Positions 1 to 18,834 of a DNA stretch of 20,232 nucleotides are shown one piece after another. A model generated the notes under the pieces. The model was not told where the DNA came from. It searched no databases and was given only the letters and a program-made list of their open reading frames with translations. Origin of the DNA: a virus. The stretch's first letter is position 1; the number at the start of each line of letters is the position of its first letter. The translations under genes and the position numbers were made by a program. The DNA lies in the IMG/VR virus record IMGVR_UViG_3300048912_000075, positions 1 through 20,232 of that record; one strand, 5' to 3'.

Positions 1-2
1 AC

Positions 3-1823
3 CGCAATGACTCAATCGCGCGCTGGTCAGCTGGGGTGACCTGGGGTGAGCTGCTGGGGCCCGATGGGTGGACAGAGCTGGGCAGGGTGGACAGCTGTGG
101 CTGCCCGGTGTTCACCAAGCCCGGTGGTGGCAATAGCAACGATCGATCAGCCACCGGCCATGAGGCCAGCTGTGCCGTGCCGTTCTTGAACATCGAGGGC
201 CATGGGCCCCTGCACCTGTGGACCACTGAGCCCCCGGCACCGTTGGATCTGTGGATCTCAGTGCACGGCCAGACGCTCACCAAGCTGCAGTACCTGGCCG
301 TTACCCGGTTCGATGGTGACACTGATCTGGCGCTGGGCTACCTGGGCTTGGCCGGGCCCGGCTTGACCCCATCCGGCTGGGTGGAAAGCCTGCCACCGGC
401 TGAGATCCCACGTGATCCCAGGGATGACATGGGATCTGGGATGACAGCGACCGATCAACCAAGCCCAGAGCCAGATCTGGTGCCGGATATGTCTGATCCC
501 AATGATCAACTTGAGCCTGATGTCAGAAAGCCCCTGACCAGCGAAAACGTCTCATCCCATGATCCCAGCCCCCTAGTAACCGGGGATCTGGGATCAGACA
601 GCCACCGTGACCCTTTCTGGCGCGCCGATGAGACGGCTGAGATCCGGGAGTTGATCAAGCAAGCTGCCAAGCGTCAAGAGGTTGAGGCCAGGGCCAGGGA
701 GCTACGTGAGTACCGGATCTCAGGTGGCACTCTGCGGATGCGGATCAAGGCAGCCAGCTCGATCATGACGACGGCTGTAGAGGCCTCTGTGGCTCATCGC
801 GCCGATGGGGTGGCCATCCTGTACCGGGGCCGGGTAAACACCATCTGGGGGCCATCTGAGAGCGCTAAAAGCTGGTTCTCACTGTGCTGTGCCATCGACA
901 CACTGAGCCGGGGTGGCTCTGTCCTGATCATCGACACTGAGGATGATGAGTCTGGCTTTGACAGCCGGATGACTGCCATTGGCTGGCCTAAGCACCCAAG
1001 GGCCAGCTACGTACAGCTGATGATGGCCCCTACCTCGATCGAGCGTGATGAGCTACTGGCAGCTGCCAAGGCAGCTGATCTGGTGGTGGTCGATTCGCTT
1101 GATGGGTTGCTGGCCATCCTGGCTTTGGAGAGCAACAACGCCACGGCTGTCCGTACAGCTGGGGCCATGCTCAAGCAATGGGCCCAGGCTGGCAACGCTG
1201 CAGTGTTGGTGGTGGACCACAGCACTGAGAAAGTTACTGAGGGCAAACCGGCAACGGCCATGGGCAGCTCAGCCAAGAAACAACTGATTGATGGCGTGAT
1301 GCTCAGGGCCGATCGTGAGACTGAGTGGAAGCCCCAAGCCCTCTGCACAACGATGATCATGCTGGGCAAGGATCGACACGGACAGGTCAAGCAATGGGCT
1401 GAGTATAAGAGTGATGCACCTGGGGAGCGTGCCTTTGGCCGGTTGGCCAGGCTGCAGATGGTCAGCTCAAGCCCTGACACACCAAGCGTTCTCAGTCTGC
1501 TCAGGCCACCCAGCTATACCGATATGCCTGAGACTCTCATCCGGGCAACCAAAGATGAGATCAAGGCCATTGAGGGCCAGCTACTCACAGCCCTGATCGA
1601 TGCCAAGGGCAAGCTACTCAGCCGTACCGATCTGCTGGCCGTGGCTGGGGATAAGAACGATCGAAAGGGCTACAGCCAGATACTCGATGCCCTGGCAGAA
1701 CGCAACCCACCAGAGGGCTTGCTGGGGGGCATCAAGGTGCACATCAGCAAGCACGGCCAAGAGACTCGATACCACTACAGCTGGGAGAGTCCAGACACCA
1801 AGGGAGACAGCACAGATGACTAG
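3..1823 (+). CDS. Primase/helicase-type replication protein, 5' partial (RepA-like AAA_25 ATPase)
   Basis: The frame is open to the left edge, and the residues before the GTG at 36 (NDSIARWSAG) fit the family, so the gene starts upstream, probably with a primase-polymerase domain not seen here. Residues below count from that GTG. Residues 1-115 resemble the small domain found after the primase domain in actinophage proteins (CGCPVFTKPGG, SATGHEASC, PLHLWT). Residues about 123-188 are a polar, Pro/Asp-rich linker encoded by repeated DNA. Residues about 255-480 form a RecA/RepA-like ATPase: P-loop GPSESAKSW (about 271), IIDTEDD (about 298), Walker B DLVVVDS (about 348) and VVDHS (about 393). 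The usual P-loop Gly before Lys is Ala. The likely role is ATP-driven unwinding or priming at the phage origin. Family is confident; exact enzymology is inferred. Confidence 0.85.
   Translation, partial: RNDSIARWSAGVTWGELLGPDGWTELGRVDSCGCPVFTKPGGGNSNDRSATGHEASCAVPFLNIEGHGPLHLWTTEPPAPLDLWISVHGQTLTKLQYLAVTRFDGDTDLALGYLGLAGPGLTPSGWVESLPPAEIPRDPRDDMGSGMTATDQPSPEPDLVPDMSDPNDQLEPDVRKPLTSENVSSHDPSPLVTGDLGSDSHRDPFWRADETAEIRELIKQAAKRQEVEARARELREYRISGGTLRMRIKAASSIMTTAVEASVAHRADGVAILYRGRVNTIWGPSESAKSWFSLCCAIDTLSRGGSVLIIDTEDDESGFDSRMTAIGWPKHPRASYVQLMMAPTSIERDELLAAAKAADLVVVDSLDGLLAILALESNNATAVRTAGAMLKQWAQAGNAAVLVVDHSTEKVTEGKPATAMGSSAKKQLIDGVMLRADRETEWKPQALCTTMIMLGKDRHGQVKQWAEYKSDAPGERAFGRLARLQMVSSSPDTPSVLSLLRPPSYTDMPETLIRATKDEIKAIEGQLLTALIDAKGKLLSRTDLLAVAGDKNDRKGYSQILDALAERNPPEGLLGGIKVHISKHGQETRYHYSWESPDTKGDSTDD
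402..600. repeat. GATCCCA repeat block inside the primase linker
   Basis: Two elements here recur in the non-coding region before the portal gene. Element 1 (405-444) matches 7212-7251 at 35 of 40 positions by hand. Element 2 (534-599) matches 7133-7197 over about 65 bases with several differences, and both keep an inverted repeat of ATCCCA/GATCCC type around an 18-20 base loop. The block encodes residues about 123-188 of the primase-like protein without breaking the frame. Confidence 0.75.
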
Positions 1824-2136
1824 GACAACTACGGCAACGGTTGAGAGTCTGCAGGCCTCAGTAAGAGTGCTCATGGTGGGCAATCGGCAAGTGACAGCAT
1901 CGATGGCCAAACAACTCGATGAGGTTGAGCCACATCAACTAATCCCAATGGGCCGGGTAGTGCTGGGTGCGAGAGATCCCCAGTGGCCTGAGATCACAGT
2001 TGTTGGCGCACACCGGGTAACCAGTGAGCTGGTGCGCTGCACTGTGGTTGGTGAAAGCTGGTTTGGCAGGGCTGCTGATCCTGATTGGGACTGGGCTGAG
2101 GCTCAGCCTTTGCTCATCCTGGGGGGCTTGCGATGA
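1816..2136 (+). CDS. Small phage protein of unknown function
   Basis: This 106-residue frame starts at an ATG overlapping the last 8 bases of the primase gene and ends in a 4-base overlap with the nuclease gene, so translation is probably coupled. It begins MTRTTTATVESLQ and contains QVTASMAKQLDEVEP and GRVVLGARDPQWPEITVVGAH. It looks like a small mixed alpha/beta protein with an acidic, Trp-containing tail. I see no catalytic motif, membrane segment or Cys cluster. Small proteins of this kind sit between primase and resolvase genes in related phages, which suggests an accessory replication role (inference). The same frame is open upstream to 1600, but that part lies inside the primase gene. 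Confidence 0.7.
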   Translation: MTRTTTATVESLQASVRVLMVGNRQVTASMAKQLDEVEPHQLIPMGRVVLGARDPQWPEITVVGAHRVTSELVRCTVVGESWFGRAADPDWDWAEAQPLLILGGLR

Positions 2137-2456
2137 CTAACGCGCTGGCCAAGGGCACGCGCTGGCGCAAGGCCGTACAGGATTGGTTCACCGGCATCGG
2201 CTATGAGTGCGTGGCCAAGGCATGGATGCAACCTGGGGATGACATCACAGCTGTGAGAGGGATGTTGGCTCTCAGCGTTGAGTGCAAGGATCATCGAGCG
2301 CTGGCCATCGGCACGTGGGTGGACCAGGCAGAGCGCCAGTGCCCAGAGGGTCAGATCCCGATTGTGGTGGCACATCGACTGGGGCACAGCAGAGCAGAGG
2401 ATGCCTTTGTGATCATGTCTGCTCACACCTTTGGTGACCTGTTGGAATCACTGTGA
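2133..2456 (+). CDS. PD-(D/E)XK nuclease, Holliday-junction-resolvase-like
   Basis: This 107-residue protein begins with a basic helix (TRWRKAVQDWF). The expected nuclease core follows: Asp37 in QPGDDI, then a strand LALSVECK giving the E50-C-K52 signature of the PD-(D/E)XK fold, then WVDQAERQ. Length and motif order match the short Hjc-like resolvases of actinophages. The inferred role is metal-dependent cutting of branched replication or recombination intermediates before packaging. The ATG overlaps the upstream stop by 4 bases, and the downstream GTG overlaps this stop by 4, so it sits in a tightly coupled replication operon. The fold is well supported. Junction specificity rather than general nuclease activity is inferred. 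Confidence 0.8.
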   Translation: MTNALAKGTRWRKAVQDWFTGIGYECVAKAWMQPGDDITAVRGMLALSVECKDHRALAIGTWVDQAERQCPEGQIPIVVAHRLGHSRAEDAFVIMSAHTFGDLLESL

Positions 2457-2608
2457 TCAATCGACTCTGCTACTGGCTCAGGGCACGTCGGTGCACGTGC
2501 CGGGGGTATCCCAAGCGCTTTGCCGGTTGCACGGTGCAGATCGGTGGCATGGTTCACCAGATCGATGGGCCCTGCTACCTCTGTGACACATACGGCCAGC
2601 CGCTATGA
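2453..2608 (+). CDS. Tiny Cys-rich protein, possible zinc binder
   Basis: This 51-residue frame starts at a GTG overlapping the nuclease stop (GTGA), the spacing seen throughout this operon. The sequence begins MINRLCYWLRARRCTCRGYP and later carries GPCYLCDTYG. The pairs CTC and CYLC could make a small zinc-binding site, and the N-terminal half is strongly basic, suggesting contact with nucleic acid. No family is recognised. Support is the coupled start and the Cys pairs. The stop codon overlaps the start of a dispersed repeat at 2607. Confidence 0.5.
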   Translation: MINRLCYWLRARRCTCRGYPKRFAGCTVQIGGMVHQIDGPCYLCDTYGQPL

Positions 2609-2675
2609 AACCCGTTGCGCGACATACGATGTGGGGCGGCCGGCCGTTACACACAGTAACGGGCGCAACAGGTTT
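2607..2675. repeat. Dispersed boundary repeat, copy 1
   Basis: The 69-base element starts at the stop codon of the preceding gene. Outer arms 2608-2620 and 2663-2675 form a 13-bp inverted repeat with one mismatch. Inside are ACAT/ATGT, the palindrome GGCCGGCC, and a 7-bp hairpin (CCGTTAC 2644-2650, GTAACGG 2656-2662, loop ACACA). It shares an exact 20-base block (2648-2667) with copy 3 at 16495-16514. As RNA it could fold into a branched structure. Confidence 0.7.
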
Positions 2676-2685
2676 GGGACCGTAG

Positions 2686-2832
2686 ATGACTGAGGGGGGC
2701 CCAACCGGTGGCTTGCTGGTGGCCATTGCCATCTGGGTATGGCGTCATCGCAGACCATGGCACGGCAAGCACAGCAGAGGCTTTCATCGCAAACGTGGGA
2801 AGCATGAGGATGATCGGGATGAGAGTGCTTGA
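2686..2832 (+). CDS. Possible small membrane protein
   Basis: This 48-residue frame begins MTEGGPTGGLLVAIAIWVWR and ends in a very basic then acidic tail (HRKRGKHEDDRDESA). Residues about 8-19 are hydrophobic enough for one short membrane segment, followed by positive charges that would stay inside. It overlaps the methyltransferase start by 14 bases. The ribosome site is weak and no family is recognised. It could be a small holin-like or membrane accessory protein, or a chance frame. Confidence 0.35.
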   Translation: MTEGGPTGGLLVAIAIWVWRHRRPWHGKHSRGFHRKRGKHEDDRDESA

Positions 2833-3454
2833 TCTCTACTGTGGCGCTGGTGGCGCTGGCCATGGCTACTGGCTGGCCGGGCACTCAGTGCTGGGGGTGG
2901 ATCTCTGGCCACAGCCTGAGTACCCACATCCGATGATCGAGGCAGACGCGCTGAGCTTTCTCAAGCTGGGTTACCTGGGATCGTTCGATGTGATCCATGC
3001 CAGCCCACCGTGTCTGGCCAGCACAGCCCTCAACAAAGGCACCAACGGCAGAGCCAGGATCGATCTCATTGCCAAGACACGCGCTGCACTGCAGCGCACT
3101 GGGCTGCCCTACGTCATCGAGGGAGTGAGGCTGGCCAAGCTGAGGCCTGATCTGATCCTGTGTGGGGAGATGTTCAAGCTGGGGGTACTGCGGCACCGGC
3201 ACTTTGAGCTGGGTGGTGGGCTCTCGATTCCCCAGCTCGATCACGTACCGCACCGGGGCCGGGTACGCGGGTACCGGCACGGCCAGTGGATCGAGGGCCC
3301 GTATCTGCAGGGCTATGGCCAAGGTGGGGGCAAGCCCAGCGTGACTGAGCTGGGTGAGGCCATGGGCATTGACTGGATCACTGATCCAGTGGCACTCAAC
3401 CAAGCAATCCCACCGGACTACACCAGATGGATTGGCGAATCATGGACGATCTAG
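2819..3454 (+). CDS. DNA cytosine-5 methyltransferase (Dcm-like)
   Basis: This 211-residue protein begins MRVLDLYCGAGGAGHGYWLA, the AdoMet-binding motif I of C5-cytosine methyltransferases. The Pro-Cys catalytic motif IV follows at about residues 61-65 (ASPPC), and LRHRHFEL matches motif VIII. It would transfer methyl groups from AdoMet to cytosines in phage DNA, probably to protect it or to mark it for packaging. The usual ENV of motif VI reads EGV here (about residue 100). The protein is short and has little room for a separate target-recognition domain. I chose ATG 2819 because GAGGA lies 8 bases upstream; ATG 2804 is an in-frame alternative. The next gene starts within its last 13 bases. 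Confidence 0.82.
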   Translation: MRVLDLYCGAGGAGHGYWLAGHSVLGVDLWPQPEYPHPMIEADALSFLKLGYLGSFDVIHASPPCLASTALNKGTNGRARIDLIAKTRAALQRTGLPYVIEGVRLAKLRPDLILCGEMFKLGVLRHRHFELGGGLSIPQLDHVPHRGRVRGYRHGQWIEGPYLQGYGQGGGKPSVTELGEAMGIDWITDPVALNQAIPPDYTRWIGESWTI

Positions 3455-3636
3455 AGCGTGAGCTATCGATCTTGCTCAACCGGCATCATGCCGAAAAGCC
3501 AAGCAACACACCGGATTACACCCTGGCCCATTACATGATTGGCTGCCTCGATGCGTTCACTGAGGCAACCGTCAAGCGTGATCAGTGGTACCTGGGTGCC
3601 GGGCATGTCCACCACATTGGAGAGAGCCCGGTATGA
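3442..3636 (+). CDS. Conserved small actinophage protein of unknown function
   Basis: This 64-residue protein starts MDDLERELSILLNRHHAEK and continues SNTPDYTLAHYMIGCLDAF, ending near QWYLGAG. The pattern 'ELSxLLNRH...E..SNTPDxxLAxxxxxCLxAF' is one I recognise from many actinobacterial phages, where it lies close to terminase genes. Its function is not known to me. It is probably helical. ATG 3427 is an alternative start, but the family alignment begins at the second Met. It overlaps the methyltransferase end and shares 4 bases (ATGA) with the next gene. Confidence 0.75.
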   Translation: MDDLERELSILLNRHHAEKPSNTPDYTLAHYMIGCLDAFTEATVKRDQWYLGAGHVHHIGESPV

Positions 3637-3857
3637 CAGACCAGGATGTGGCAGAGGCCATCTCAAGCGATGCCAAGATCAGGATTGCTGCCGTTAACAC
3701 TGTGATGCAACACCTCTCGATGTTCCCCAGCTCGATGGCTGCAGAGGATCTGTGGGAAAACAACCCAGAGCTGACAGAGATCGAGGCTGAGGCAGCTGGG
3801 GAGTTGGCTGATCTCATAGCCATCTCGATCTCTGCAGGGATCGGGGCCATGCCGTGA
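3633..3857 (+). CDS. Hypothetical acidic helical protein
   Basis: This 74-residue protein starts MTDQDVAEAISSDAKIRIAA at an ATG overlapping the previous stop. It is acidic and helix-rich (AEDLWENNPELTEIEAEAAGELADLIA). I see no Cys, no catalytic motif and no strong membrane segment, although the C-terminal ADLIAISISAGIGAMP is mildly hydrophobic. Coupled overlaps on both sides support translation. Function is unknown. Confidence 0.65.
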   Translation: MTDQDVAEAISSDAKIRIAAVNTVMQHLSMFPSSMAAEDLWENNPELTEIEAEAAGELADLIAISISAGIGAMP

Positions 3858-4057
3858 CGTGCTCAGTCTGTGGATCGGTCACCACCCAGATCTGTACCGA
3901 TCCGACGTGCTACACCAATAGCCCAGCTCACCACCCAGCTGATCGGTTCAAGGTGGTGGATGCCATCACCCAGGCAGCCATCAAGCTGGGGTGGCTGCCC
4001 ATCTGGGCTGAGTCCGGTGAGCAATTGGTAACCCTGACAGTGAGGCCAAGGACATGA
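3854..4057 (+). CDS. Hypothetical protein with N-terminal Cys cluster
   Basis: This 67-residue protein starts at a GTG overlapping the previous stop. Its N-terminus, MTCSVCGSVTTQICTDPTCY, holds four Cys in two pairs (CxxC and CxxxxC), which would suit one zinc ion. The rest (FKVVDAITQAAIKLGWLPIW) looks like a helix then a strand. It may bind nucleic acid or protein, but no family is recognised. It shares 4 bases with the collagen-like gene that follows. Confidence 0.6.
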   Translation: MTCSVCGSVTTQICTDPTCYTNSPAHHPADRFKVVDAITQAAIKLGWLPIWAESGEQLVTLTVRPRT

Positions 4058-4431
4058 GCTATGACGATGATCAGACAGTCAAGCTCAGGGTGAGAGCCCT
4101 TGAGCTGACAGCACCCATAGCTGGGCCCCAAGGCCCAGCTGGGCCAGCTGGCCCCAAGGGTGACACCGGGGCCCAGGGCCCGGCCGGTACACCGGCACCG
4201 GCCATGTTCAAGCAAGCCGGGGGTTACTCAACCAATGGCACTGGTGACATCTCGATTGCCACAACCGGTGTGGCCCCATCCGTGGTGGTGTCCATGATCG
4301 AGGCCAGTGGTGCCTACTTCACCACCAGGATCTCAGGTGCCCCAGCTGGCAATGCGTGGATCAGGGTGTGGCAAGCCGGTGGCCAGCCACTACCTAACGC
4401 TTTCATCTTGATGTCAATCGTGGCGTGGTGA
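4054..4431 (+). CDS. Collagen-like protein with a tail-tip-type C-terminal domain
   Basis: This 125-residue protein has three parts. Residues 1-23 form a short head. Residues about 24-46 are collagen-type Gly-X-Y triplets (GPQGPAGPAGPKGDTGAQGP), which usually drive trimer formation. Residues about 50-125 form a beta-rich domain with GGYSTNG, GAPAGNAWIRVW and PNAFILMSIVAW. The same motifs occur in the tail-region gene at 18458-18832 (GGYTTNQ, SAPAGNVWFQF, PNVFAIIDWIAMGY), so the two are paralogous. A trimeric surface or receptor-binding role is therefore likely, although the gene lies among early-region genes. The start overlaps the previous stop (ATGA). Confidence 0.75.
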   Translation: MSYDDDQTVKLRVRALELTAPIAGPQGPAGPAGPKGDTGAQGPAGTPAPAMFKQAGGYSTNGTGDISIATTGVAPSVVVSMIEASGAYFTTRISGAPAGNAWIRVWQAGGQPLPNAFILMSIVAW

Positions 4432-4433
4432 GA

Positions 4434-4649
4434 ATGAGCCTGAGTCATTGGGCTTTCGCCCTGGGTGGATTCATGTTGGGTGCAGCGCTGGTGCTGTGGT
4501 GGTGGTACTGGGCAGACGGCAGGAGGGATGAGGATGAGTATCGAGGCAGAGCAGATGTACCGGGAGTGGATCAGGCTCAATGGTCCACTGACCCCGATGA
4601 CGGTGGTGGACCTGATCAGCTGGGTGATTACTCAGGCCAGACGTCATGA
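4434..4649 (+). CDS. Small single-span membrane protein
   Basis: The frame encodes 71 residues beginning MSLSHWAFALGGFMLGAALV, which continues into LWWWYWADGRRDED: one membrane helix then charged residues. The C-terminal half is Asp/Gly/Pro-rich. It starts 2 bases after the collagen-like gene; GTG 4425 is an in-frame alternative. The last 116 bases overlap the next gene in another frame. A single-span holin-type or membrane accessory role is possible, but no holin family is recognised. Confidence 0.5.
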   Translation: MSLSHWAFALGGFMLGAALVLWWWYWADGRRDEDEYRGRADVPGVDQAQWSTDPDDGGGPDQLGDYSGQTS

Positions 4650-4758
4650 GGCTGAGGGCCACCGGCACATCACCATCACGGACAGGGACGATCTGACCCA
4701 GCTGGGGTATGAGCTGCACCAGGATGGCGGGTACCACAGACGCGCTGAGAGTCCCTGA
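4534..4758 (+). CDS. Hypothetical helical protein
   Basis: This 74-residue protein begins MSIEAEQMYREWIRLNGPLT and continues PMTVVDLISWVITQARRHEAEG, then ITDRDDLTQLGYEL. It starts 7 bases after a strong Shine-Dalgarno AGGAGG (4521-4526), one of the best in the window; ATG 4528 is an alternative. It is probably a small helical protein with no clear catalytic motif. It overlaps the preceding membrane-protein gene by 116 bases in another frame, and the strong ribosome site favours it as real. A GC-rich hairpin follows 9 bases after its stop. Confidence 0.6.
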   Translation: MSIEAEQMYREWIRLNGPLTPMTVVDLISWVITQARRHEAEGHRHITITDRDDLTQLGYELHQDGGYHRRAESP

Positions 4759-4767
4759 GATCGATTG

Positions 4768-4787
4768 GCCGGGGGATAGCCCCCGGC
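4768..4787. terminator. GC-rich hairpin, likely terminator or module boundary
   Basis: Arms GCCGGGGG (4768-4775) and CCCCCGGC (4780-4787) pair perfectly over 8 bp around the loop ATAG. It lies just after a stop codon and before the HNH-terminase module. There is no T-run, so it resembles the U-tail-free terminators proposed for GC-rich actinobacteria. Activity is inferred. Confidence 0.5.
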
Positions 4788-4823
4788 TGATCGTTGCCCT
4801 ACGGCCCAGCTGAGTGCCACCCT

Positions 4824-5009
4824 GTGGCTGTGGGAAACAAGCCGGGGGTAGTTGTAACCAGGGTGGTGGCCAGAATAGGTGGGCCCTGCTTGGGATACCG
4901 GGCACGGTGCGTGGCCTGCCGTTGGTGCTCAGCTCGATACCAATCACCGGATCAAGCCAGAGCTGTGGGCAGAGAGCACAGGGGCACCCATGCCACCCAG
5001 ATCCCGTAG
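4824..5009 (+). CDS. Small zinc-finger-like protein
   Basis: This 61-residue frame has Cys22, Cys29, Cys32 and Cys35 (GPCLGYRARCVACRWCSARY) and then His52 and His56 (REHRGTH), a plausible zinc-ribbon or finger layout. The spacing and basic residues suggest DNA or RNA binding. It ends 20 bases inside the HNH-terminase gene. The start is uncertain: the frame opens at 4791, TTG 4794 and GTG 4830 are alternatives, and no convincing ribosome site is seen. No named family is recognised. Confidence 0.45.
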   Translation: MAVGNKPGVVVTRVVARIGGPCLGYRARCVACRWCSARYQSPDQARAVGREHRGTHATQIP

Positions 5010-6972
5010 GCCACCACCCATCAAGCGCACATCGGGTGACAGCTTCACCAGAGCAGACCGGCTCACGCTGGCTGAGATTGCTGGCTGGCATTGCCAGCTC
5101 TGTGGCAGGCCACTGCAGGCCACCGATCCCAAGGCCCCTGACTACCTGATAGCCGGACATGTGGTGGCTCATCAGGATGGGGGCAGACCGGTACTGGCCA
5201 ACGGCCGGGCAGAGTGCCAAGCCTGCAGCACCACCATTGGTGCAGCGCAAGGGAACATCAAAGCCAAGCGCGATTGGATCGAGCTACAGGACCAGCTACG
5301 CCAGGCTAGGGCAGAGGTACAACGGTACGAAAATATCGTTGCGACACAACAACTCTCAGTCACAGAGCCCGGTTTTTCGACAGGCCCCCCCAGCCAGGAA
5401 AGGCCGCCCCTTTCCGTCCCCATCCCCCAGACCCCCGGGAGCCCTGCAGCTAACCCCTTGGGGCCCAACGGTTCTCATGATCATCGGCCGGCAGACCCAC
5501 AACCGTTGCTGCACAAGGATTCTCAGCCCTCTGAGTTCAAGGAAGTGGAGTGGATCGAGGGAGAGGGCCTCTTGATCGTTCCTGAGAATGCTTGCTGGCC
5601 AAGGTTTATGACTGGGCCTCATCCGGACGCTATCGGATCGTATGGGGCTGAGCTGGCTCAGTTTGCCGTTGATCGGACAGGAAAGCCCTTGGACTGGTGG
5701 CAACGGCTGATCTCTGCACGCATCCTTGAGCACGATGCTGATGGGGTGCTGGTCTGGCAGGAATGGATCTTGAGCGTGGCCAGGCAGCTGGGCAAGAGCT
5801 ACTGGTGGCGTGAGCTGTGTCTGTGGCGGATGTCCAAGGCTGATGAGATCGGTGAGCCCCAGGAGATCCTGCACATAGCCAACAAACTCAAGGTGGCCAA
5901 CAAGATCCAACGGCCTGCCAGGGCTTGGGCTGAGACTCAGGATGGCTGGGATGCCCGGCACGGCAACGGAGTGCAGGAGGTACGGCACGGCCTGAGCACG
6001 TGGGCCCTGAGCACGGCTGAGGGAGCCTACGGGGCAACGATCTCCCTAGCTGGGGTGGATGAGGCCTGGGACATCCCAGCTGAGCACATTGACGATGGTG
6101 TGGTCCCGACGATGCTTGAGAGCAAGTGGTCCCAGCTGGGGATCATCAGCACAGCCCACCATCTGGCCACTGATCTGGTGATCAACCGACGTGCCGGGGC
6201 CATGAAAGGTGATGGCACGTTGCTCATCGAGTGGTCTGCCCGGCCCTGGCTGGCGCTCGATGATCGAGCTGGGTGGAGACAGGCAAGCCCCCGGTGGACT
6301 CCCAAGCGTGAGGCCCAGCTAGCGCGTGAGCTGGCCAGGGCCCTGAGCACCCAGAGCCTCAGTACCGATCCGGTGGCGTTCTTTCGCTCCCAGTACCTCA
6401 ACCAGTGGCCGAACAAGCCAGCCCAGAGCCTTACCCGGCCGGGGCTGCCGTTGCTGCCTGAGGGCACCTGGGCAGAGCTGGCCGGTGATGCCGACACTCC
6501 CGGCTCAGTGGCCTTTGCCGTTGAGGACATGGCTGGCCGTGGCGTGGCCGTGGCTGCAGCTGGGAGAGCCCAAGATGGCCGGATCGTGGTGCAGGCCTTT
6601 GAGCTGGGTGATCGGTCCGTGGCCTTTGAGTGGATCGGGATGCACAGCCGATCCCGGCCCGGTTGCTCTGTGATCGTCGGGCCCAGCCTGCAGAATGACC
6701 CTCAGATCGAGGATCTGGGCATCCCGGTGGACATCAGCACCTATGCCGACACCAAGGCCTCTCTGAGTGCCCTGAGGCAGCTGGTGAGCCGTCGAATGGT
6801 GATGCACGCCAACTCACCCAAGCTGGCCGATCAGATGACGATGTGTCGCGTGGTGGAGCCCCCAGCTGGGGGAATCAGGGTGATCAGCTCAGACCCATGG
6901 GACCTGATCCGGGCAGCCAGCTGGGCCGTGACCACCATCGAGCGTGAGCGTAGGGCTTTGAACATCTGGTGA
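4990..6972 (+). CDS. HNH endonuclease fused to terminase large subunit
   Basis: This 660-residue protein joins two functions usually encoded separately. Residues about 28-95 are an HNH nuclease: CQLC (36-39), GHVVAH (56-61) followed by a GGRPVLANGRAEC stretch, and CQAC (76-79), giving the ββα-metal core plus a four-Cys zinc site. Residues about 114-184 are a Pro/Ser-rich linker. The remainder is a phage terminase: adenine-region DWWQ, Walker A-like ARQLGKS (about 264), Walker B with catalytic acid VDEAW (356-360), STAHH coupling motif, and a C-terminal nuclease region (FAVEDMAGRG). It would cut concatemers and drive ATP-dependent packaging through the portal. I chose ATG 4990 because the HNH fold starts just after it; the frame is open to 4879 without family-like sequence. 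No separate small terminase was recognised. Confidence 0.88.
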   Translation: MPPRSRRPPPIKRTSGDSFTRADRLTLAEIAGWHCQLCGRPLQATDPKAPDYLIAGHVVAHQDGGRPVLANGRAECQACSTTIGAAQGNIKAKRDWIELQDQLRQARAEVQRYENIVATQQLSVTEPGFSTGPPSQERPPLSVPIPQTPGSPAANPLGPNGSHDHRPADPQPLLHKDSQPSEFKEVEWIEGEGLLIVPENACWPRFMTGPHPDAIGSYGAELAQFAVDRTGKPLDWWQRLISARILEHDADGVLVWQEWILSVARQLGKSYWWRELCLWRMSKADEIGEPQEILHIANKLKVANKIQRPARAWAETQDGWDARHGNGVQEVRHGLSTWALSTAEGAYGATISLAGVDEAWDIPAEHIDDGVVPTMLESKWSQLGIISTAHHLATDLVINRRAGAMKGDGTLLIEWSARPWLALDDRAGWRQASPRWTPKREAQLARELARALSTQSLSTDPVAFFRSQYLNQWPNKPAQSLTRPGLPLLPEGTWAELAGDADTPGSVAFAVEDMAGRGVAVAAAGRAQDGRIVVQAFELGDRSVAFEWIGMHSRSRPGCSVIVGPSLQNDPQIEDLGIPVDISTYADTKASLSALRQLVSRRMVMHANSPKLADQMTMCRVVEPPAGGIRVISSDPWDLIRAASWAVTTIERERRALNIW

Positions 6973-7309
6973 TCTGGGTACTGTCCGTGGGCTCTCACCC
7001 AGCCCCCGACTGGCCATGATCGTGCTGGGTGAGAGTCCATACCCTGAGAGACACAGGGGCCCTTAGCGTGGCACTGAGAGCCTCTTGGGACCACTGGTTT
7101 GAGATCCCAGCCCCAGATCTCATCCCAGGCCTCTGACCAGGGAAAACGAGTCATCCCAGATCCCTCCCACCTATAGTGCCCTGGGATCTGGGATGACCCC
7201 TGGCACAGCACATCCCACGAGATCCCTGGGATTAGCTGGGATCTGGGATGAGATCGAGGCCATATAGCCCCTTTGCCCCTGTCTCGCAAGAGAGGCAGAA
7301 TGATGATCT
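6973..7309. promoter_or_regulatory. 337-base structured non-coding region between terminase and portal
   Basis: No convincing gene lies here. It holds a 12-bp perfect inverted repeat (6992-7003/7024-7035) flanked by GGGTA/TACCC (6976-6980/7040-7044). A 13-bp inverted repeat (7116-7128/7243-7255) encloses a 15-bp perfect one (7150-7164/7183-7197). The 18-base loop of the last contains TATAGT (7172-7177), a -10-like hexamer, though no good -35 is seen. The motif GGGATCTGGGATGA or its complement occurs three times. The first hairpin may end terminase transcription; the others could be operators or an RNA switch before the head genes. Confidence 0.55.
7101..7255. repeat. GATCCCA repeat block, non-coding copy
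   Basis: Element 2 (7133-7197) and element 1 (7212-7251) lie here in the opposite order to the copies in the primase gene, and a further partial unit sits at 7101-7128. The 14-base unit GGGATCTGGGATGA occurs at 7183-7196 and 7238-7251, and as its complement at 7151-7164. Confidence 0.75.
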
Positions 7310-8635
7310 ATGGCAGATACACCGGGTAACCACAGCCGATCTCTGCCACCCCCGGATGACCCTCGATCCGCCACCCCCAACGCCAATGAGCCCATGGGCA
7401 CGGTGAGCCCTACCTACCCCGGTGTGCCCACGGTGCCCAGCCCTGCAGATCTGCCCACCGGTACAGCTGGGGTGCCCGGCCAGTACGACAATCTTGGCGT
7501 TGGCGGGACTCACGTGATGTACCCGGCCGACAATCCGCCACCGGGCATGATGCCCTGGGCTGGCTGGCCGGTGGAGTGGCAGCTGCCCAACATGCTCAGC
7601 GCAAGCCCCCGGTGGATGGGTGGTGGCACTGACATTGTCTGGACAGCCATCGACCGTAACGCCACGGCCATAGCTGACATGCCGGTGGTGGTCAGCAGGA
7701 ACGGTGCCAAGCAAGCAAGCCCCAGCTGGCTCAACAACCCCAGCCCAGAGCTGTACAGCCAGTGGGCTGAGTTCATGCGCCAGTGCTGCTGGGCCTACTG
7801 GGCAACCGGTGAGATCTTCATTGTCTGCACCAGTCGCTTTGCCGATAGCGGGTACCCACGGACGTTCATGATGCTTGACCCATGGATGGTCAACGCTGAG
7901 ATTCTCGATGGGGTACGGCACTACACCATCAACGGCCACGATGCCGATGCTGAGATCTTGCACATCCGGTACAGCTCATGGCCTGGGGATGCCAGGGGCC
8001 ATGGGCCCCTTGAGGTAGCCGGTGAGCGGACAGCTGCAGCTCGGGCCCTCATGCTCTATGCGTCCAATCTGGCCAGCTCTGGTGGTGTGCCCTGGGGCAT
8101 CCTCACCAGCAAGATGAGGATGAGCAAGGCTGAGAGCGAAAAGCTCAAGAGGCAATGGATCGAGGCATCCCGATCGAGGCTAGGGGCCCCGGCCATCCTT
8201 GATGCGGATCTCAATCTACAGATCACCCAGACCACGCCACGTGACATGACCCTGACCGATCTGCAGAAATTCGCAGAGGCCAGATTGGCTGTGCTGCTTG
8301 GTGTTCCGCCATCAATGCTGGGGTTGCCCAGTGGCTCAGACTCTCTCACCTACACCAACACCAACAGCATCTTTGACTACTGGTGGCGGATCACACTCAA
8401 GCCCCACGGTGGCTACATTCTCAAGGCCATCTCTGAGTGGGCTCTGCCCGGCCATGTTGACCTACTGCTCAATGCCGACAGCTACACCCAGCCATCGGCT
8501 CTTGAGCGGGCCCAGTATTACCAGATCATGGCTGCCCTTGGTGCCATTGGAGTCTCTGAGATCCGCGCTGCAGAGGGCCTGTCCGTTGACGATCAACCCA
8601 GCGCCATCCCTCAGCCCCAGACGGTTGCACAGTGA
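7310..8635 (+). CDS. Portal protein (HK97-like)
   Basis: This 441-residue protein belongs to the HK97-type phage portal family. The first 70 or so residues are a Pro-rich, probably disordered head. The portal core follows: DIVWTAIDRNATAIADMPVV, ELYSQWAEFMRQCCWAYWAT, EILHIRYSSWPGD, then the crown/clip region GILTSKMRMSKAESEKLKRQ and the wing strand QKFAEARLAVLLGVPPSMLG. Twelve copies would form the ring through which DNA enters the head and to which connectors bind. It lies between the terminase and the protease, the standard head order. The ribosome site GAGAGG (7290-7295) is 14 bases before this ATG, further than usual; a mini-frame at 7303 lies at the ideal distance. Confidence 0.92.
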   Translation: MADTPGNHSRSLPPPDDPRSATPNANEPMGTVSPTYPGVPTVPSPADLPTGTAGVPGQYDNLGVGGTHVMYPADNPPPGMMPWAGWPVEWQLPNMLSASPRWMGGGTDIVWTAIDRNATAIADMPVVVSRNGAKQASPSWLNNPSPELYSQWAEFMRQCCWAYWATGEIFIVCTSRFADSGYPRTFMMLDPWMVNAEILDGVRHYTINGHDADAEILHIRYSSWPGDARGHGPLEVAGERTAAARALMLYASNLASSGGVPWGILTSKMRMSKAESEKLKRQWIEASRSRLGAPAILDADLNLQITQTTPRDMTLTDLQKFAEARLAVLLGVPPSMLGLPSGSDSLTYTNTNSIFDYWWRITLKPHGGYILKAISEWALPGHVDLLLNADSYTQPSALERAQYYQIMAALGAIGVSEIRAAEGLSVDDQPSAIPQPQTVAQ

Positions 8636-8645
8636 GAGGCCAATC

Positions 8646-9299
8646 ATGACTGACCATGATCTCTACATCCGGGAGTTTCCAACGGATCTGGACATCCGTG
8701 AGCTGCCTGATGACGGCATGTTGGTTGAGGGCTTGGTGGTCCCTTTCGGCATCGAGGCAGACATCGTGGAGCCACGTGAGAGCGGGGTGATCCGGTACCG
8801 GGAGGCCTTTGCCCCCGGCTCTTTCGATCGCGCCATCAGGGCCCCCCACTGGGTTGCCTTGACGTACAACCACTCTGAGGACATGCCCAACCGGATGGGG
8901 CACGGCCGGGAGTTCCATGAGTCTGCAGAGGGCTTGGTGGGCATCTTCAAGCTCGATGCCACGCACGCTGCCCAGGCCAGGGACATCCTCACCGGCTCTC
9001 ATCGAGCGTTCTCAGTGGGCTTTGTGTCCGTGGTCCCCCGGCCCCTGATCGAGCGTCCCAACTCACTGGTGATCCGTAAGAGCGTCATCCTGAGGCACGT
9101 GGCAGCCGTCCCAGCTGGGGCCTATGCCTCTGCAGCTGTCAGCTCGATCCGTGAGGATGCCGACGATGTACCGACCACCAATGAGTCAGCAGAGGCCGTG
9201 GCCAAGGCTGAGCTGGCCGATGTGTTCGCATTCATTGATCAGGCTGCCCAGGAACAGAAACGGTGGGATGCCTTGCTCAATCCGGATGCTCAGGTCTAG
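8646..9299 (+). CDS. Prohead protease (HK97-like, peptidase family S78)
   Basis: This 217-residue protein begins MTDHDLYIREFPTDLDIREL, then VEGLVVPFGIEADI. The probable catalytic residues are His76 (ALTYNHSEDM) and Ser123 (HRAFSVGF), in the order typical of HK97-family proteases. The third position, where many members have EVS, reads RHVAAVPAGAY, so an acid is not obvious. It would trim the capsid and scaffold regions during head maturation. The ATG follows GAGAGG (8634-8639) by 6 bases, with the site overlapping the portal stop. The frame is open back to 8298, but that part lies inside the portal gene. The acidic, helical C-terminus may act as scaffold or capsid contact. Confidence 0.9.
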   Translation: MTDHDLYIREFPTDLDIRELPDDGMLVEGLVVPFGIEADIVEPRESGVIRYREAFAPGSFDRAIRAPHWVALTYNHSEDMPNRMGHGREFHESAEGLVGIFKLDATHAAQARDILTGSHRAFSVGFVSVVPRPLIERPNSLVIRKSVILRHVAAVPAGAYASAAVSSIREDADDVPTTNESAEAVAKAELADVFAFIDQAAQEQKRWDALLNPDAQV

Positions 9300-9344
9300 C
9301 CTCAGCCACGTACCAAACCGACACACCCAGCGACAGCAGAGACA

Positions 9345-9375
9345 CCTACGGCTTGTGGGCACGGCCCCAAGTAGG
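9345..9375. terminator. Stem-loop between protease and capsid genes
   Basis: Arms CTTGTGGGC (9352-9360) and GCCCCAAG (9364-9371) pair with one bulged T around the loop ACG. CCTA (9345-9348) and TAGG (9372-9375) extend the stem past a CGG bulge. It lies in a 133-base gap (9300-9432) with no gene. It could be an attenuating terminator or an mRNA-stabilising 5' structure for the capsid message. Confidence 0.45.
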
Positions 9376-9432
9376 CAGATCTGGCGTGAGTGGGCACACC
9401 GGTGAGATCCCAGCTATCAAAGGGTTTTCACC

Positions 9433-10698
9433 ATGGATCAGATCAGTACCAAGCTCATTCAAGAGCGCCAGACGCTTGTGAGCCGGGCAGAGGACATCAA
9501 GACTCGTGCCTTTGAGGACAATCAGCGTGATCTGGTTGACACCGAAAAGAGCACGCTCATCAACATTCAAGAGCGCGTGCGCAACATCGATGCCCAGCTT
9601 GCGCTCACCACAACGGATCTCAAGCTGGCCGATGACACTGCAGCTGCCATCGCGCGCTACTCCGGACAGCCCCACGTGCCGGATGGCGGGCACCAGTGGC
9701 GCTCTGCCGGTGAGGCTCTCTGGGATTACATTCACCAGTACGACGATCGGGATGCACGTGAGCGCGTGCGTAGGTTCCAAGGCCGTGCCGCTGAGCACAT
9801 GGGCACCAAGGCTGAGGTAACCGTGGCCACGGCCGGTGGCTTTGGTGGGCTCATCCTCAATCCGGTGGTGGGCCCTGTCATTGACACCAGCTGGGGTGGC
9901 ACGCCATTCCTTGACCTGATCGGCCCTCTTCCGGCCCCCGGCCCTCTCAATTTCATGAGGCCCCGGATCGTTGACCCAAACCTCAACGATGGCGCTGGGC
10001 CCCAGACCGGCAGCAAGGAAAAGGCAGAGCTGCCCAGCAAGAAATTCGACGTGCTGGCAGATCCGGTGCAGCTGTCCACCGTGGGCAGCTACCTCAACCT
10101 GAGCTTGCAGGCAGAGGCACTGGTGGCCGGATCTCTTGATCTGGTGGTCACTCAGCTCAATCGACGCACGGCCAGGGCAGCTGAGAATGCCGTGGTGGCT
10201 GAGGCTGCCAAGACAACGGCTCAGGTCACCCTGGCAGCTGGGGCTGATGCTGCCACCACGCTGGCTGCCATCTATGAGGCTGCAGCGCTGGTGTTCACCA
10301 CCACCAATGAGCTGCCCACGTGGCTGGCCATGGGGCCCAACGGATGGGCCCAGCTGGGGTCACTGGTGGATCTCGCTGGCCGTCCGATCTTCCCCAGCAT
10401 CGGGGCCATCAATGCACCGGGCACCAGCGTGGCCAGTGGCTTTGGTGGCACGGTGGCCGGACTCCGGACCACGGTCACTCCCGGCATCACTGACACCACG
10501 ATGTACATGGGCAATGGCGTTGGCATGGAGGCATATATCTATCGCTTCCCGGTGCTCTCCCAGGTTGAGCCCTCGATCTTGGGTCGTCAGATTGCCGTGG
10601 CAATCGCGCTGGGTCTGTACTCAGCCACCACCACTGAGGCTGGCCCCGGTGGCACCCCAGCTGCCCTCAAGGCAGGAATCGTCAAGATCGCCCCGTAA
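9433..10698 (+). CDS. Major capsid protein (HK97 fold)
   Basis: This 421-residue protein is recognised by its position after the protease and by its HK97-type layout. Residues 1-75 are a charged coiled-coil region (KLIQERQTLVSRAEDIKTRA), like the delta domain that the protease removes. Next come a short connector (SAGEALWDYI) and the capsid core beginning near TKAEVTVATAGGFGGLILNP. Later features are ELPSKKFDVLADPVQLSTVG, the helix QAEALVAGSLDLVVTQLNRR, and TWLAMGPNGWAQLGSLVD (the usual 'MNPxxWxxL' area). The C-terminus is GLYSATTTEAGPGGTPAALK. Many copies form the icosahedral shell. A good ribosome site AAAGGG (9419-9424) lies 8 bases before the ATG, as expected for a highly made protein. 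Confidence 0.9.
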   Translation: MDQISTKLIQERQTLVSRAEDIKTRAFEDNQRDLVDTEKSTLINIQERVRNIDAQLALTTTDLKLADDTAAAIARYSGQPHVPDGGHQWRSAGEALWDYIHQYDDRDARERVRRFQGRAAEHMGTKAEVTVATAGGFGGLILNPVVGPVIDTSWGGTPFLDLIGPLPAPGPLNFMRPRIVDPNLNDGAGPQTGSKEKAELPSKKFDVLADPVQLSTVGSYLNLSLQAEALVAGSLDLVVTQLNRRTARAAENAVVAEAAKTTAQVTLAAGADAATTLAAIYEAAALVFTTTNELPTWLAMGPNGWAQLGSLVDLAGRPIFPSIGAINAPGTSVASGFGGTVAGLRTTVTPGITDTTMYMGNGVGMEAYIYRFPVLSQVEPSILGRQIAVAIALGLYSATTTEAGPGGTPAALKAGIVKIAP

Positions 10699-10700
10699 GC

Positions 10701-10770
10701 GAAAACCCTTGCGCTACATAGGGTCTGAGGCGGCCGGCGCACGGTCATCGTATGCAGCGCAAGGGTTTTC
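10701..10770. repeat. Dispersed boundary repeat, copy 2, with 15-bp inverted ends
   Basis: Arms GAAAACCCTTGCGCT (10701-10715) and AGCGCAAGGGTTTTC (10756-10770) are perfect complements around 40 bases. The element begins 2 bases after the capsid stop. A-tract/stem/T-tract symmetry would allow a two-way terminator. The left 38 bases match copy 4 at 34 positions by hand count. The bases AAGGGTTTTCACC (10761-10773) also occur just before the capsid ATG (9420-9432). Confidence 0.75.
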
Positions 10771-10796
10771 ACCCATGCAACGAAAGAGGTAACGCT

Positions 10797-10946
10797 ATGG
10801 GACGTTTGAGCCGTGAGGCCGGTGGCCTTGGGGAGTACAGCGATGACAACGCCAATGAGCAACCTGAGCCAGAGCTAGAGCCGGATGACGGTTGGCCGGT
10901 CATGGATCTGCCCCCGGTTGAGGATGATGAGGATGAGCCAGCATGA
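10797..10946 (+). CDS. Very acidic small protein after the capsid gene
   Basis: This 49-residue protein starts at an ATG preceded by AAAGAGG and ends in a 4-base overlap with the next gene. After MGRLSREAGGLGEYSDDNAN it is almost all Asp, Glu and Pro (EPELEPDDGWPVMDLPPVED). It is probably disordered. The position between capsid and connector genes suggests a head-associated or neck accessory role, but no family is recognised. The in-frame ATG at 10752 lies inside the repeat and is less likely to be used. Confidence 0.55.
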   Translation: MGRLSREAGGLGEYSDDNANEQPEPELEPDDGWPVMDLPPVEDDEDEPA

Positions 10947-11260
10947 CGGCAGCCGGGTACTACGACACCAGCTATCCACCCAGTCTCTTTGGGCCCCCAG
11001 CTGCCCTTGACCCATCGATCACGGCTCTCTTGCCAACCACGGTGGCAGCTGCAGCTGGGCCGACCACGGTGCAGGTCAATGGCACCAACTTTGAGGCTGG
11101 CTCTGTGATCGAGATCGATCAGGTTGCAGTGCCAACAACTTTCGTATCTGCTACCCGGTTGACCACCAGCTATGACCCCAGCGTGGCTGGCACGGTGGCC
11201 TTTACCGTGCGCAACCCCAGCAACATGGAATCAAACTCAGTGAGTTTCGTGGTGTCATGA
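10943..11260 (+). CDS. IPT/TIG-like Ig-fold protein, possible head decoration
   Basis: This 105-residue protein has a Pro-rich start (GYYDTSYPPSLFGPPAALDP) and then one IPT/TIG-type immunoglobulin-like domain. The tell-tale parts are ITALLPTTVAAAAGPTTVQV, NGTNFEAGSVIEIDQ, 'VPTTFVSATRLTTSYDPS', and the last strands GTVAFTVRNPSNMES followed by SVSFVV. Such domains in phage head regions commonly decorate capsids or tails and may bind surface sugars. Overlaps of 4 bases on both sides put it in the connector operon. The fold is fairly sure; the decoration role is inferred. Confidence 0.75.
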   Translation: MTAAGYYDTSYPPSLFGPPAALDPSITALLPTTVAAAAGPTTVQVNGTNFEAGSVIEIDQVAVPTTFVSATRLTTSYDPSVAGTVAFTVRNPSNMESNSVSFVVS

Positions 11261-11655
11261 CAGCTGCCCTGGGGCCCAGGTTCCCGCCATCGTTTGTCTG
11301 GGATGGCAACCCAGCCGACGTGATCGAGCAAGCGCGCGCATATCTGGCGCTCAACGCCAATGATCCGGACATGGCACGGTTGGCCACGGTGACCGATGCC
11401 GCTATCGAGCTGGTGCGCCAGTACCTTGACGCGCCGTTGCCGTTCGATGATCTGGCCCAGACTGCCCCCATACCGGCCCCAGTCTTTCAAGCGTGCGTTT
11501 TCATCACGGTTGAGGGTTACCGGCGCAAGGACGCCACGTTTGGGCTCACAGGCTCATTCTCAGCCGATGGCATCCCGGTACGGATCTCCAACGATTGGCT
11601 GGCCCCGGCCCTCAACCTGTTGGCACCGTACAAAGAGGGCTGGGGGCTGGCGTGA
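11257..11655 (+). CDS. Head-tail connector / adaptor protein
   Basis: This 132-residue, mostly helical protein has the features of phage head-tail adaptors of the gp6 type: a first helix (NPADVIEQARAYLALNANDP), a second (MARLATVTDAAIELVRQYLD), then PAPVFQACVFITVEGYRRKD and the C-terminal DWLAPALNLLAPYKEGWG. It would form a ring under the portal. The order capsid, small head proteins, adaptor, tail terminator supports this. It shares 4 bases with both neighbours. Subfamily is uncertain. Confidence 0.75.
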   Translation: MTAALGPRFPPSFVWDGNPADVIEQARAYLALNANDPDMARLATVTDAAIELVRQYLDAPLPFDDLAQTAPIPAPVFQACVFITVEGYRRKDATFGLTGSFSADGIPVRISNDWLAPALNLLAPYKEGWGLA

Positions 11656-12041
11656 CCACCACTCAGGCCCGGCCGGTGATCAACGATGCCATGAGGCCCA
11701 TCCTCGATGCCCTCACGGCAGCTGGGATCAGGGCCACCAACGATCTCAAGATGCTCAACCCACCGTGCGCGTATCTGGCTGCCCCAGAGCTGACCTTTCG
11801 ATTCCGCAAAGGTGATTTCACAGCCACCTACTCGCTGCTACTGGTGAGCGCCAACACCAGTCGTCGGCTGGCTTTCGATGAGATCTCAGCTCTGCTCTCG
11901 CTGTGCCAGCAAGTGCTGGGTGAACGGGCCCAGACTGCCCGGCCGGTGGATGTTCCCACCAACGATGGCTCAGCTGTGCTGCTGGGCTATGAGCTTTCGT
12001 GGTCCGAAACGATCAGACAAACCCAAGGAGCGCCAGCATGA
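11652..12041 (+). CDS. Probable tail terminator / head-tail joining protein
   Basis: This 129-residue protein starts at a GTG overlapping the adaptor stop. It opens MTTTQARPVINDAMRPILDA, followed by LTAAGIRATNDLKMLNPPCAYLAAPE, a pattern I associate with actinophage tail terminators, then strands FRFRKGDFTATYSLLLVSAN and the helix DEISALLSLCQQVLGERAQT. It would cap the tail tube and join it to the neck. Position directly before the major tail gene fits. The frame is open from 11595, but that part lies inside the adaptor gene. Confidence 0.7.
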   Translation: MTTTQARPVINDAMRPILDALTAAGIRATNDLKMLNPPCAYLAAPELTFRFRKGDFTATYSLLLVSANTSRRLAFDEISALLSLCQQVLGERAQTARPVDVPTNDGSAVLLGYELSWSETIRQTQGAPA

Positions 12042-12703
12042 CTGCACCAGCACCTACTCTGCCCACGGATACCGGCCAGCTCGGGCCGGGCACGCTCAAG
12101 GTGGGCCCGGTTGGTAGTGAGATCGACGTGTCCTGCTACATCAACAATGCCGGGATTGAGGTATCCAAGAACACCACGGATCAGACCTACAAGCTCTGTG
12201 GCGTTGCCCGGCCGGGGGTGACCACCTATACGTACACGCTGTCCGGCAATGTGGATGTTGATCTGGCCAATGATGCTGGCCTCATGGCTCTTTCGTGGGA
12301 TGACGCGGGTAGCTCCCAGTCGTTTGAGTTCACCCCCAACGATGATCTTGGGGTGACGTTCACCGGCACCTTGACGATCGACCCACTCAACGTGCAGGGC
12401 AGTGAGTATGGCGCTGACATCACATCTGATTTTGCCTGGGTCTGTGTCGGTAAGCCCACGGTGGACCGTGGTGGCTCAGGTGGTGGCACGGTGGCCATTA
12501 CCGGGGTTACGGCCGGTAGCCCCGGCTCATTCCAACCGGGCAACGCAACCATTCCGGCCAATCTCGCTGCCCTCAAGGCAGATCCGGTGGTGGGTGACGC
12601 TGTGCACACCGGGGCAGCTTGGACCACCGGCCAGAGTGTCAACCTGGGTACCGGGGCAGCTCACTGGGATGGCACGGCCTGGGTAACCGGTCTGGTGCCC
12701 TGA
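12038..12703 (+). CDS. Major tail protein with C-terminal extension
   Basis: This 221-residue protein follows the tail terminator with a 4-base overlap and AAGGAG upstream of its ATG. Residues about 15-150 carry the tube fold: GTLKVGPVGSEIDVSCYINN, GVTTYTYTLSGNVDVDL, the loop SWDDAGSSQSFEFTPNDD, and FTGTLTIDPLNVQGSEYGAD. Residues about 158-221 form a Gly/Thr-rich extra domain (GTVAITGVTAGSPGSFQP, then AAHWDGTAWVTG), probably exposed on the tube surface. It would polymerise around the tape measure protein. Identification rests on order and fold features. Confidence 0.8.
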   Translation: MTAPAPTLPTDTGQLGPGTLKVGPVGSEIDVSCYINNAGIEVSKNTTDQTYKLCGVARPGVTTYTYTLSGNVDVDLANDAGLMALSWDDAGSSQSFEFTPNDDLGVTFTGTLTIDPLNVQGSEYGADITSDFAWVCVGKPTVDRGGSGGGTVAITGVTAGSPGSFQPGNATIPANLAALKADPVVGDAVHTGAAWTTGQSVNLGTGAAHWDGTAWVTGLVP

Positions 12704-12704
12704 G

Positions 12705-13088
12705 ATGGCCGGTGGGATCGAGGCAACCGTTAACGTGCCGGGGCTCAAAGATCTGGTGCGATTGATGCGCAAGGCTGGCGTAGACATGGCCGATCTCAAA
12801 GAGGCCAACAAGGCAGCTGGCAGCATCGTTGCCACCAGGGGCAAGAGTGTGGCCCCCAGGATGACCGGCAAGCTGGCTGCCTCGATCCGACCCAGTAAGA
12901 CAGCAAGGAAAGCCGTTGTGCGAGCTGGGGGCTCAGGCATCCGGTACGCGCGCTTTCAAGAGTTCGGTACACGCAAGAACAGCGCCAAGCATTACCTGTA
13001 CGGCTCTGCTGAGTGGACCCAGCCCCAGTGGGTGCCCAAGTATGAGCATGACCTGTCCGTCATCATGTCAAGGATCAGAGGGAGTTAG
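12705..13088 (+). CDS. HK97 gp10-like tail completion / neck protein
   Basis: This 127-residue basic protein has the gp10 family pattern: a first helix VPGLKDLVRLMRKAG, AAGSIVATRGKSVAPRMTGKLA, the strand ASIRPSKTARKAVVRAG, then IRYARFQEFGTRKNSAKHYL. The 'P.xTGxLxxSIR...YAxxxEFGT' signature is clear. Family members act in tail completion or head-tail joining. It usually precedes the tail terminator, whereas here it lies after the major tail gene, an order also found in actinophages. It begins 1 base after the major tail stop. Confidence 0.8.
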   Translation: MAGGIEATVNVPGLKDLVRLMRKAGVDMADLKEANKAAGSIVATRGKSVAPRMTGKLAASIRPSKTARKAVVRAGGSGIRYARFQEFGTRKNSAKHYLYGSAEWTQPQWVPKYEHDLSVIMSRIRGS

Positions 13089-13092
13089 ACCG

Positions 13093-13380
13093 GTGCGCAA
13101 GCTAGAGATCCATGTGGTGATGGATGACGGTACAGAGCACGATGTCTCAAGCCGATCGGCCGATTACGTGGCCTATGAGGCTGAGGCACGTAAGAGAGGC
13201 TGGGGCACGCTCTCTGACAGCCCCAGCACATGGGAGGCCTTCGTGGCTTACCGGGCCTTGAGCCGGACACGTGCTATCTCAATGCCTTTCGATCGATTCC
13301 TAGAGTCTGTTGACATCATCGAGGCCACCCCGGCTGAGACTGTGGCACTCCCAAAGGCACTTACGGCCGTCTCATCGTAG
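13093..13380 (+). CDS. Tail assembly chaperone (gpG-like)
   Basis: This 95-residue protein starts at GTG: MRKLEIHVVMDDGTEHDVSS, then YVAYEAEARKRGWGTLSDSP, AFVAYRALSRTRAISMPFDR and FLESVDIIEATPAE. This is the pattern of short gpG-like chaperones that bind the tape measure protein during tail assembly. It lies directly before the tape measure gene. Near its end it carries CCCAAAG in the phase needed for a -1 frameshift, giving a longer gpGT-like form. It starts 4 bases after the gp10-like gene. Confidence 0.8.
   Translation: MRKLEIHVVMDDGTEHDVSSRSADYVAYEAEARKRGWGTLSDSPSTWEAFVAYRALSRTRAISMPFDRFLESVDIIEATPAETVALPKALTAVSS
13350..13356 (+). other. -1 ribosomal frameshift slippery site CCCAAAG
   Basis: In the chaperone frame the codons are CTC CCA AAG, so the heptamer sits as C CCA AAG, the canonical X XXY YYZ phase. 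Slipping back one base gives CCC AAA and enters a frame open to 13556. A weak hairpin (CGTAG 13376-13380, CTACG 13389-13393) follows about 19 bases later. Confidence 0.75.
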
Positions 13381-16452: not shown

Positions 16453-16453
16453 C

Positions 16454-18832: not shown

Positions 18833-18834
18833 TC

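Follow-up and report, generated by a model that had tools for sequence, protein, structure and literature searches.

A repeated iteron block with a widespread actinobacterial core: a possible replication origin within the primase-helicase gene of a phage

Why should a phage carry the same block of DNA twice, once inside a replication gene and once in the gap between its terminase and portal genes? We addressed this question in a 20,232-base IMG/VR record (IMGVR_UViG_3300048912_000075), which was analysed over its whole length and is referred to here as the window. A first-pass annotation had noticed two elements of a primase-like gene that recur in swapped order in the terminase-portal gap. 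It had read them as a non-coding repeat domesticated as a protein linker, which might be either a binding site, such as iterons, or a spreading repeat.

The recurrence itself was confirmed. Within-record comparison matched 405-450 to 7212-7257 at 85% without gaps (E 4.5e-10) and 530-594 to 7129-7194 at 81% (E 2.0e-11), and the order of the elements is reversed between the sites (405-444 followed by 534-599 in the gene, 7133-7197 followed by 7212-7251 in the gap). The 14-base unit GGGATCTGGGATGA was located at all the places that had been reported for it, exactly at 431, 7183 and 7238 (+) and at 7151 (−), and with one change at 583 (+). When up to three mismatches were allowed, it gave 14 matches, compared to a mean of 4.1 and a maximum of 9 in shuffled sequences. 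The shorter 7-base units, (C/G)ATCCCA/TGGGAT(C/G), occur eight times in 400-600 and eight times in 7100-7260 versus 20 times in the remaining 19.9 kb, and a first-order Markov model gave at most four units per 200 nt. The first-pass annotation had considered that the match might fall within codon and base bias. Its score was 28.5, and none of 200 synonymous-codon shuffles scored as high (mean 14.4, maximum 22.5). Codon or base bias was thus ruled out by these shuffles together with the clustering of the units against the Markov model. The tetranucleotide GATC is very frequent both in the window (255 sites, 12.6 per kb) and in its relatives, and a DNA methyltransferase gene is found at 2822-3454.

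Each block is composed of two parts, namely eight phage-specific (G/C)ATCCCA units per site and a widespread core. The core, which had been overlooked in the first pass as had the units at 495, 7103 and 7121, reads AGCCYCTGACCAG(C/G)GAAAACG and is located at 528-549 and 7127-7148. Its 16 bases at 534-549 differ from those at 7133-7148 at a single position, and the next-best match in the window has three mismatches. No third copy of the block was found in the window. Another family of repeats, 61-70 nt in length (GAAAACCCTTGCGC...GGCCGGC), occurs at 2607-2675, 10701-10769, 16454-16525 and 20075-20135, as well as in the related contigs L125 (~3745), L127 (2865-2936) and L131 (3509-3578). Its copies sit just past stop codons; the copy at 10701 is predicted to fold as a terminator-like 15-bp hairpin and two others fold poorly.

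The genes and block elements listed next lie on the + strand. The genic block is hosted by a primase-helicase gene (3..1823; phrog_906, E 7.6e-36; AAA_25, E 9.8e-13), the 5′ end of which is cut by the contig edge. In the full-length relative from L127 (834 aa), Pfam places Prim-Pol at 22-206 and AAA_25 at 502-637. As first proposed, the block lies in a linker between two domains, here the Prim-Pol and AAA/RecA-like domains. Genic element A (404..445) comprises GATCCCA at 404 and 414, GGGAT at 421, TGGGATC at 430 and TGGGATG at 437; it translates as IPRDPRDDMGSGM within the linker, and its counterpart in L127 is found at 1089-1124. A lone GATCCCA unit in the linker (495..501) is kept in L127 (1180). 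It is followed by the genic core AAGCCCCTGACCAGCGAAAACG (528..549), of which CTGACCAGCGAAAACG is identical in L127, and, 3′ of the core, by genic element B (550..599), where CATCCCA at 553, GATCCCA at 561, GGGATC at 583 and TGGGATC at 589 surround a CCCCCTAGTAACC loop. Structure prediction for the full-length primase was useless (mean pLDDT 31), and its C-terminus gave a weakly winged-helix-like model of low confidence with no significant match.

The other copy lies downstream of the terminase large subunit gene (terL, 4990..6972; phrog_9, E 1e-19), whose stop codon is 154 nt from the gap core. The N-terminus of TerL harbours an HNH endonuclease-like domain (4990-5300; HNH phrogs, E 4e-05), which is a separate genome-end gene in many cos phages. 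Two units, GATCCCA at 7103 and CATCCCA at 7121, precede the core (7103..7127) and form a TCATCCCA pair in relatives. Gordonia phage BiPauneto shares 21 bases with the gap core AGGCCTCTGACCAGGGAAAACG (7127..7148). This core is followed by gap element B (7150..7198), a hairpin-capable inverted double-unit pair TCATCCCAGATCCC...GGGATCTGGGATGA, and by gap element A (7211..7251), with CATCCCA at 7211, GATCCC at 7221, GGGAT, TGGGATC at 7237 and TGGGATG at 7244. The portal protein gene (7310..8635; PF04860, E 4.5e-40) starts 162 nt past the gap core. The general layout is that of a core followed by two inverted double units around a CC..CTAG loop (element B), plus a second cluster of four or five units (element A), with units in both direct and inverted orientation.

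The block is conserved among close relatives. All five relatives that reach the gap (L125, L126, L129, L130 and L131; ~75-80% protein identity) carry the gap block, of which L131, whose contig starts inside it, holds the end only. The genic block is present in L127, the sole primase relative found (~75-80% protein identity). The unit is thus not absent from close relatives, which the first-pass annotation had named as a possible outcome, and is present at both sites. In L125 an additional gene is located between terL and the block, which still adjoins the portal gene. L127 and L125 could be pieces of a single phage that carries the two blocks, since they stem from the same metagenome and their contig ends overlap by ~126 identical bases. 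The most constant part among relatives is CTGACC(A/T)G(C/G)GAAAACG after AAGCC(T/C), not the GATCCCA unit. In the region covered in L133-L137 (~50% identity), core and units are absent. Exact matches to core plus unit in viral contigs were confined to these two places and to this clade. With GGGATCTGGGATGA alone as the key, viral contigs gave mostly single matches, and a second copy was seen only in the clade of the window. Core plus unit gave 11 matches in genomes, of which none came with homology to TerL, portal or primase. When the window was compared to L127, 23 of 35 linker codons were identical versus 313 of 435 in the rest of the gene, hence no extra synonymous conservation of the linker, a comparison in which two sequences have little power. 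Changes in the first base of the unit were too few to judge covariation between the sites.

Furthermore, we searched for the core in other viruses and genomes. The pattern YCTGACCWGSGAAAACG was found in at least 119 IMG/VR viral stretches versus one for the reversed letters, and at 34 places in 198 genomes from a single group of actinobacteria versus none for the reversed pattern. Among annotated phages, 467 records match the core, and their hosts are all actinobacterial as far as named; six differently named taxa with the core are Cheoctovirus, Tortellinivirus, Beenievirus, Gustavvirus, Charlievirus and Sasvirus. The core adjoins a tyrosine integrase in BarrelRoll, Squirty and Tortellini. In Squirty it stands on both sides of a tRNA-like segment, while Tortellini has one core at the cos end and one, with one mismatch, at the integrase. 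In addition, a primer adjoining the phiJoe int-attP locus includes part of the core. No description of the core was found in the literature searched, subscription papers being outside its coverage.

Eight of the 34 genome places are located upstream of a carD-like gene start (L157, L159-L162, L164, L165 and L179; seven of the eight probably Streptomyces), and a chromosomal role for a core-binding factor is possible there. Some others adjoin tRNA genes in actinobacterial chromosomes (L158, L167 and L173), as would be expected for the ends of integrated elements. Core-like sequences are also present near or in long left-end non-coding gaps of the Zierdtviridae BiPauneto (L182, 710-1350) and Cruella (L312, 1500-2073); those of BiPauneto lie amid GTAGTAC repeats and mark a candidate origin.

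We then considered 34 loci in unrelated viral contigs where the core lies outside long ORFs. The adjacent genes were primase/helicase in 15, terminase/portal in six and integrase in six, the remaining seven being unassigned or other. Neighbours in replication, packaging or integration were found at 27 of the 34 core loci versus 4 of 20 control genes drawn at random from the same contigs more than 2 kb from the core (Fisher p 3.6e-5, only indicative because the gene classes were defined once the first results had been seen and part of the contigs are related to one another). This association may be partly indirect, as intergenic spaces in phages cluster near replication genes, cos and attP anyway. 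At 8 of 29 loci, 7-mer repeats round the core exceeded those at random places of the same contig at p≤0.05, where 1.5 loci were expected. The repeats are specific to each contig, for instance GTGGCCGATC in L223, GTACGCATC in L237, GTGTCGGGA in L211 and ACCGAAC in L222. In L223, three core or near-core copies are found amid the GTGGCCGATC iterons next to a primase-helicase gene. The unrelated contig L248 encodes one 1732-residue ORF with Prim-Pol (142-315), primase/helicase to ~944 and DNA_pol_A (1399-1723), and its core is located in frame between domains, in a linker at residue ~1068. Nine of the ten GACGGGTT/AACCCGTC units of this 11.9-kb locus fall within 285 bp and, like the core, are in frame between the domains. 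The window and L248 thus place the core plus private repeats in the linker of a primase protein twice, with unrelated repeats.

The block is probably a working DNA landmark rather than a stray repeat, since unrelated actinobacterial viruses keep the 16-22-base core at replication, packaging and integration sites. We propose that the two blocks act in cis as DNA sites of a common system and that the genic copy is most likely a replication origin or part of one, and we give this reading a probability slightly above 0.5. The odds that the genic block is the phage replication origin, placed in the initiator gene, are about one in two. Several features of known systems are present: as in lambda, a cluster of short repeats inside a replication gene (eight units in 400-600, kept in L127); as in P4, two separated clusters of the same iterons (400-600 and 7100-7260); and, as in cos regions, a core close to the genes for HNH and terminase (here an HNH-TerL fusion, with the core 154 nt beyond it). 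By eye, no marked A+T-rich unwinding stretch was seen at either site, and 1-kb segments have 58-64% G+C. The core was absent in or near the gene of the closest annotated primases examined (Evaa and Bernardo). The GC skew changes from +0.072 (1-7000) to 0.000 (7250-20000) at the TerL-portal gap, where the flanking genes run in the same direction; it was dropped as origin evidence, as the window has no origin-type minimum.

In the proposed system, a pan-actinobacterial core (A)AGCCYCTGACCWGSGRAAACG would be flanked by the phage-specific 7-bp iterons (G/C)ATCCCA, and the disordered primase-helicase linker would absorb the origin sequence. The iterons would be bound by a phage protein, either the primase-helicase, perhaps via its winged-helix-like C-terminal domain, or a partner, and the core by a host protein common to actinobacteria. 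The resulting nucleoprotein complex would load the primase-helicase. The gap copy, since it shares units and core with the genic copy, should bind the same proteins and may serve as a second site, cos-related or similar to P4 crr. Of the interpretations first offered, the one of a binding site such as iterons in both places is thus favoured on sequence grounds, as the blocks are kept in relatives and the core recurs at unrelated actinophage loci.

More tentatively, the core might be the site of a putative sequence-specific actinobacterial host factor acting at origins, cos and attP, with each phage adding its own iterons and with several of the origins located in primase linkers. Enterobacterial phages use IHF in this manner, a parallel for the proposed factor. 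The IHF known from mycobacteria binds without sequence preference (PMC3724605, PMC6155035). It was rejected as the core binder, being called non-specific in the literature with no reported motif, and the factor behind the core would consequently be a new one. The core provides a sequence handle by which the origins and ends of many actinophages may be predicted, and it can serve directly as an assay probe to fish out the host protein.

A role in packaging, with the gap block as a cosB- or pac-like site and the genic block as a secondary or decoy site bound by terminase, is unlikely, but it has the genome ends in its favour. We inspected 60 records spread over the ranking of the 467, many of which are relatives, and in 52 of them the right genome end lies within 160 bp of the core, mostly at 55-160 bp and often with the core just past an HNH gene. 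In BFK20 (Sasvirus), the core is found at 30-53, at the left end, next to the annotated cos, and the order in the window is HNH-TerL, block, portal. However, a second such site in the primase gene would risk cutting of the genome, and cores near the primase genes of other phages are left unexplained. Moreover, the window, L125, L126, L129 and L130, five of the six contigs reaching the gap, are assembled across it without a break and L131 alone starts there, which argues mildly against a fixed genome end at this position.

Transcription control is likewise an unlikely explanation. Here a phage regulator would use the units as its operators, and the core would be a promoter site for a host factor, serving the portal operon and acting within the primase gene. 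The gap is indeed the start of the structural genes, and cores are found not only upstream of the carD-like starts in large actinobacterial genomes, but also in the operator region of an HTH gene in Gilgamesh and, in a plasmid, upstream of repL. An operator halfway along the primase ORF, on the other hand, is odd, and cores also occur between the tRNA-like attP segment and the integrase and at genome ends.

It is improbable that the block is a mobile or gene-converted repeat which multiplied in this genome and which the linker tolerated. Linkers tolerate insertions, and the identity between the two sites is of the same order as that between relatives. Against this, all close relatives covering either site carry the block, which rules out a recent insertion, and no other copy occurs in the window. 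As both copies are found in relatives of ~75-80% identity, the block is not a recent spreading repeat, and its core recurs widely as a cis element that has other repeats around it in other phages. The spreading repeat of the first-pass annotation is therefore not upheld, and neither is domestication as a linker, as the copies are orthologous and there is no sign that the gap copy is older.

In each of the five copies that were folded, the hairpin 3′ of the core was more stable than in shuffled sequences (z −2.8 to −7.9). A structured RNA working in the transcript is nevertheless very improbable, as the arms consist of the repeated unit and pair because the iterons are inverted, an Rfam search gave no match, the units at 7103, 7121 and 495 lie outside any stem, and two copies, the genic one of the window and that of L126, have a broken stem but retain their units, which speaks for binding sites of proteins rather than for a folded RNA.

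The proposed origin system can be compared to several known ones. The attP regions of BarrelRoll, Squirty and Tortellini carry the same core close to the integrase gene, whereas no integrase was seen in the 20-kb window. In the cos regions of the actinophages Tweety, Tortellini, Sekhmet, Mahdia and BFK20, the same core lies 30-160 bp from the end, often past an HNH gene, but no GATCCCA units were seen there, and the site in the window lies between the genes for TerL and portal. The satellite phage P4 has two separated iteron clusters, ori and crr, for its α primase-helicase. The window resembles P4 in having two separated iteron clusters, a likeness of arrangement, and no counterpart of the actinobacterial core is known in P4. 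In phage lambda, ori lies in the linker of O between its DNA-binding and partner-binding halves. It maps within the O gene and contains four iterons of ~19 bp bound by O (PMC5043065, PMC4488673). The genic block is similar to lambda ori in that its iterons are located inside the gene of a replication protein. The differences are that this gene encodes a primase-helicase, that the 7-bp units stand in direct as well as inverted pairs, that an A+T-rich stretch is not apparent, and that the block includes a widespread core and recurs 6.6 kb away. Origins in initiator genes are already known from lambda, while the literature searched yielded no short core common to the replication, packaging and integration sites of unrelated actinobacterial phages.
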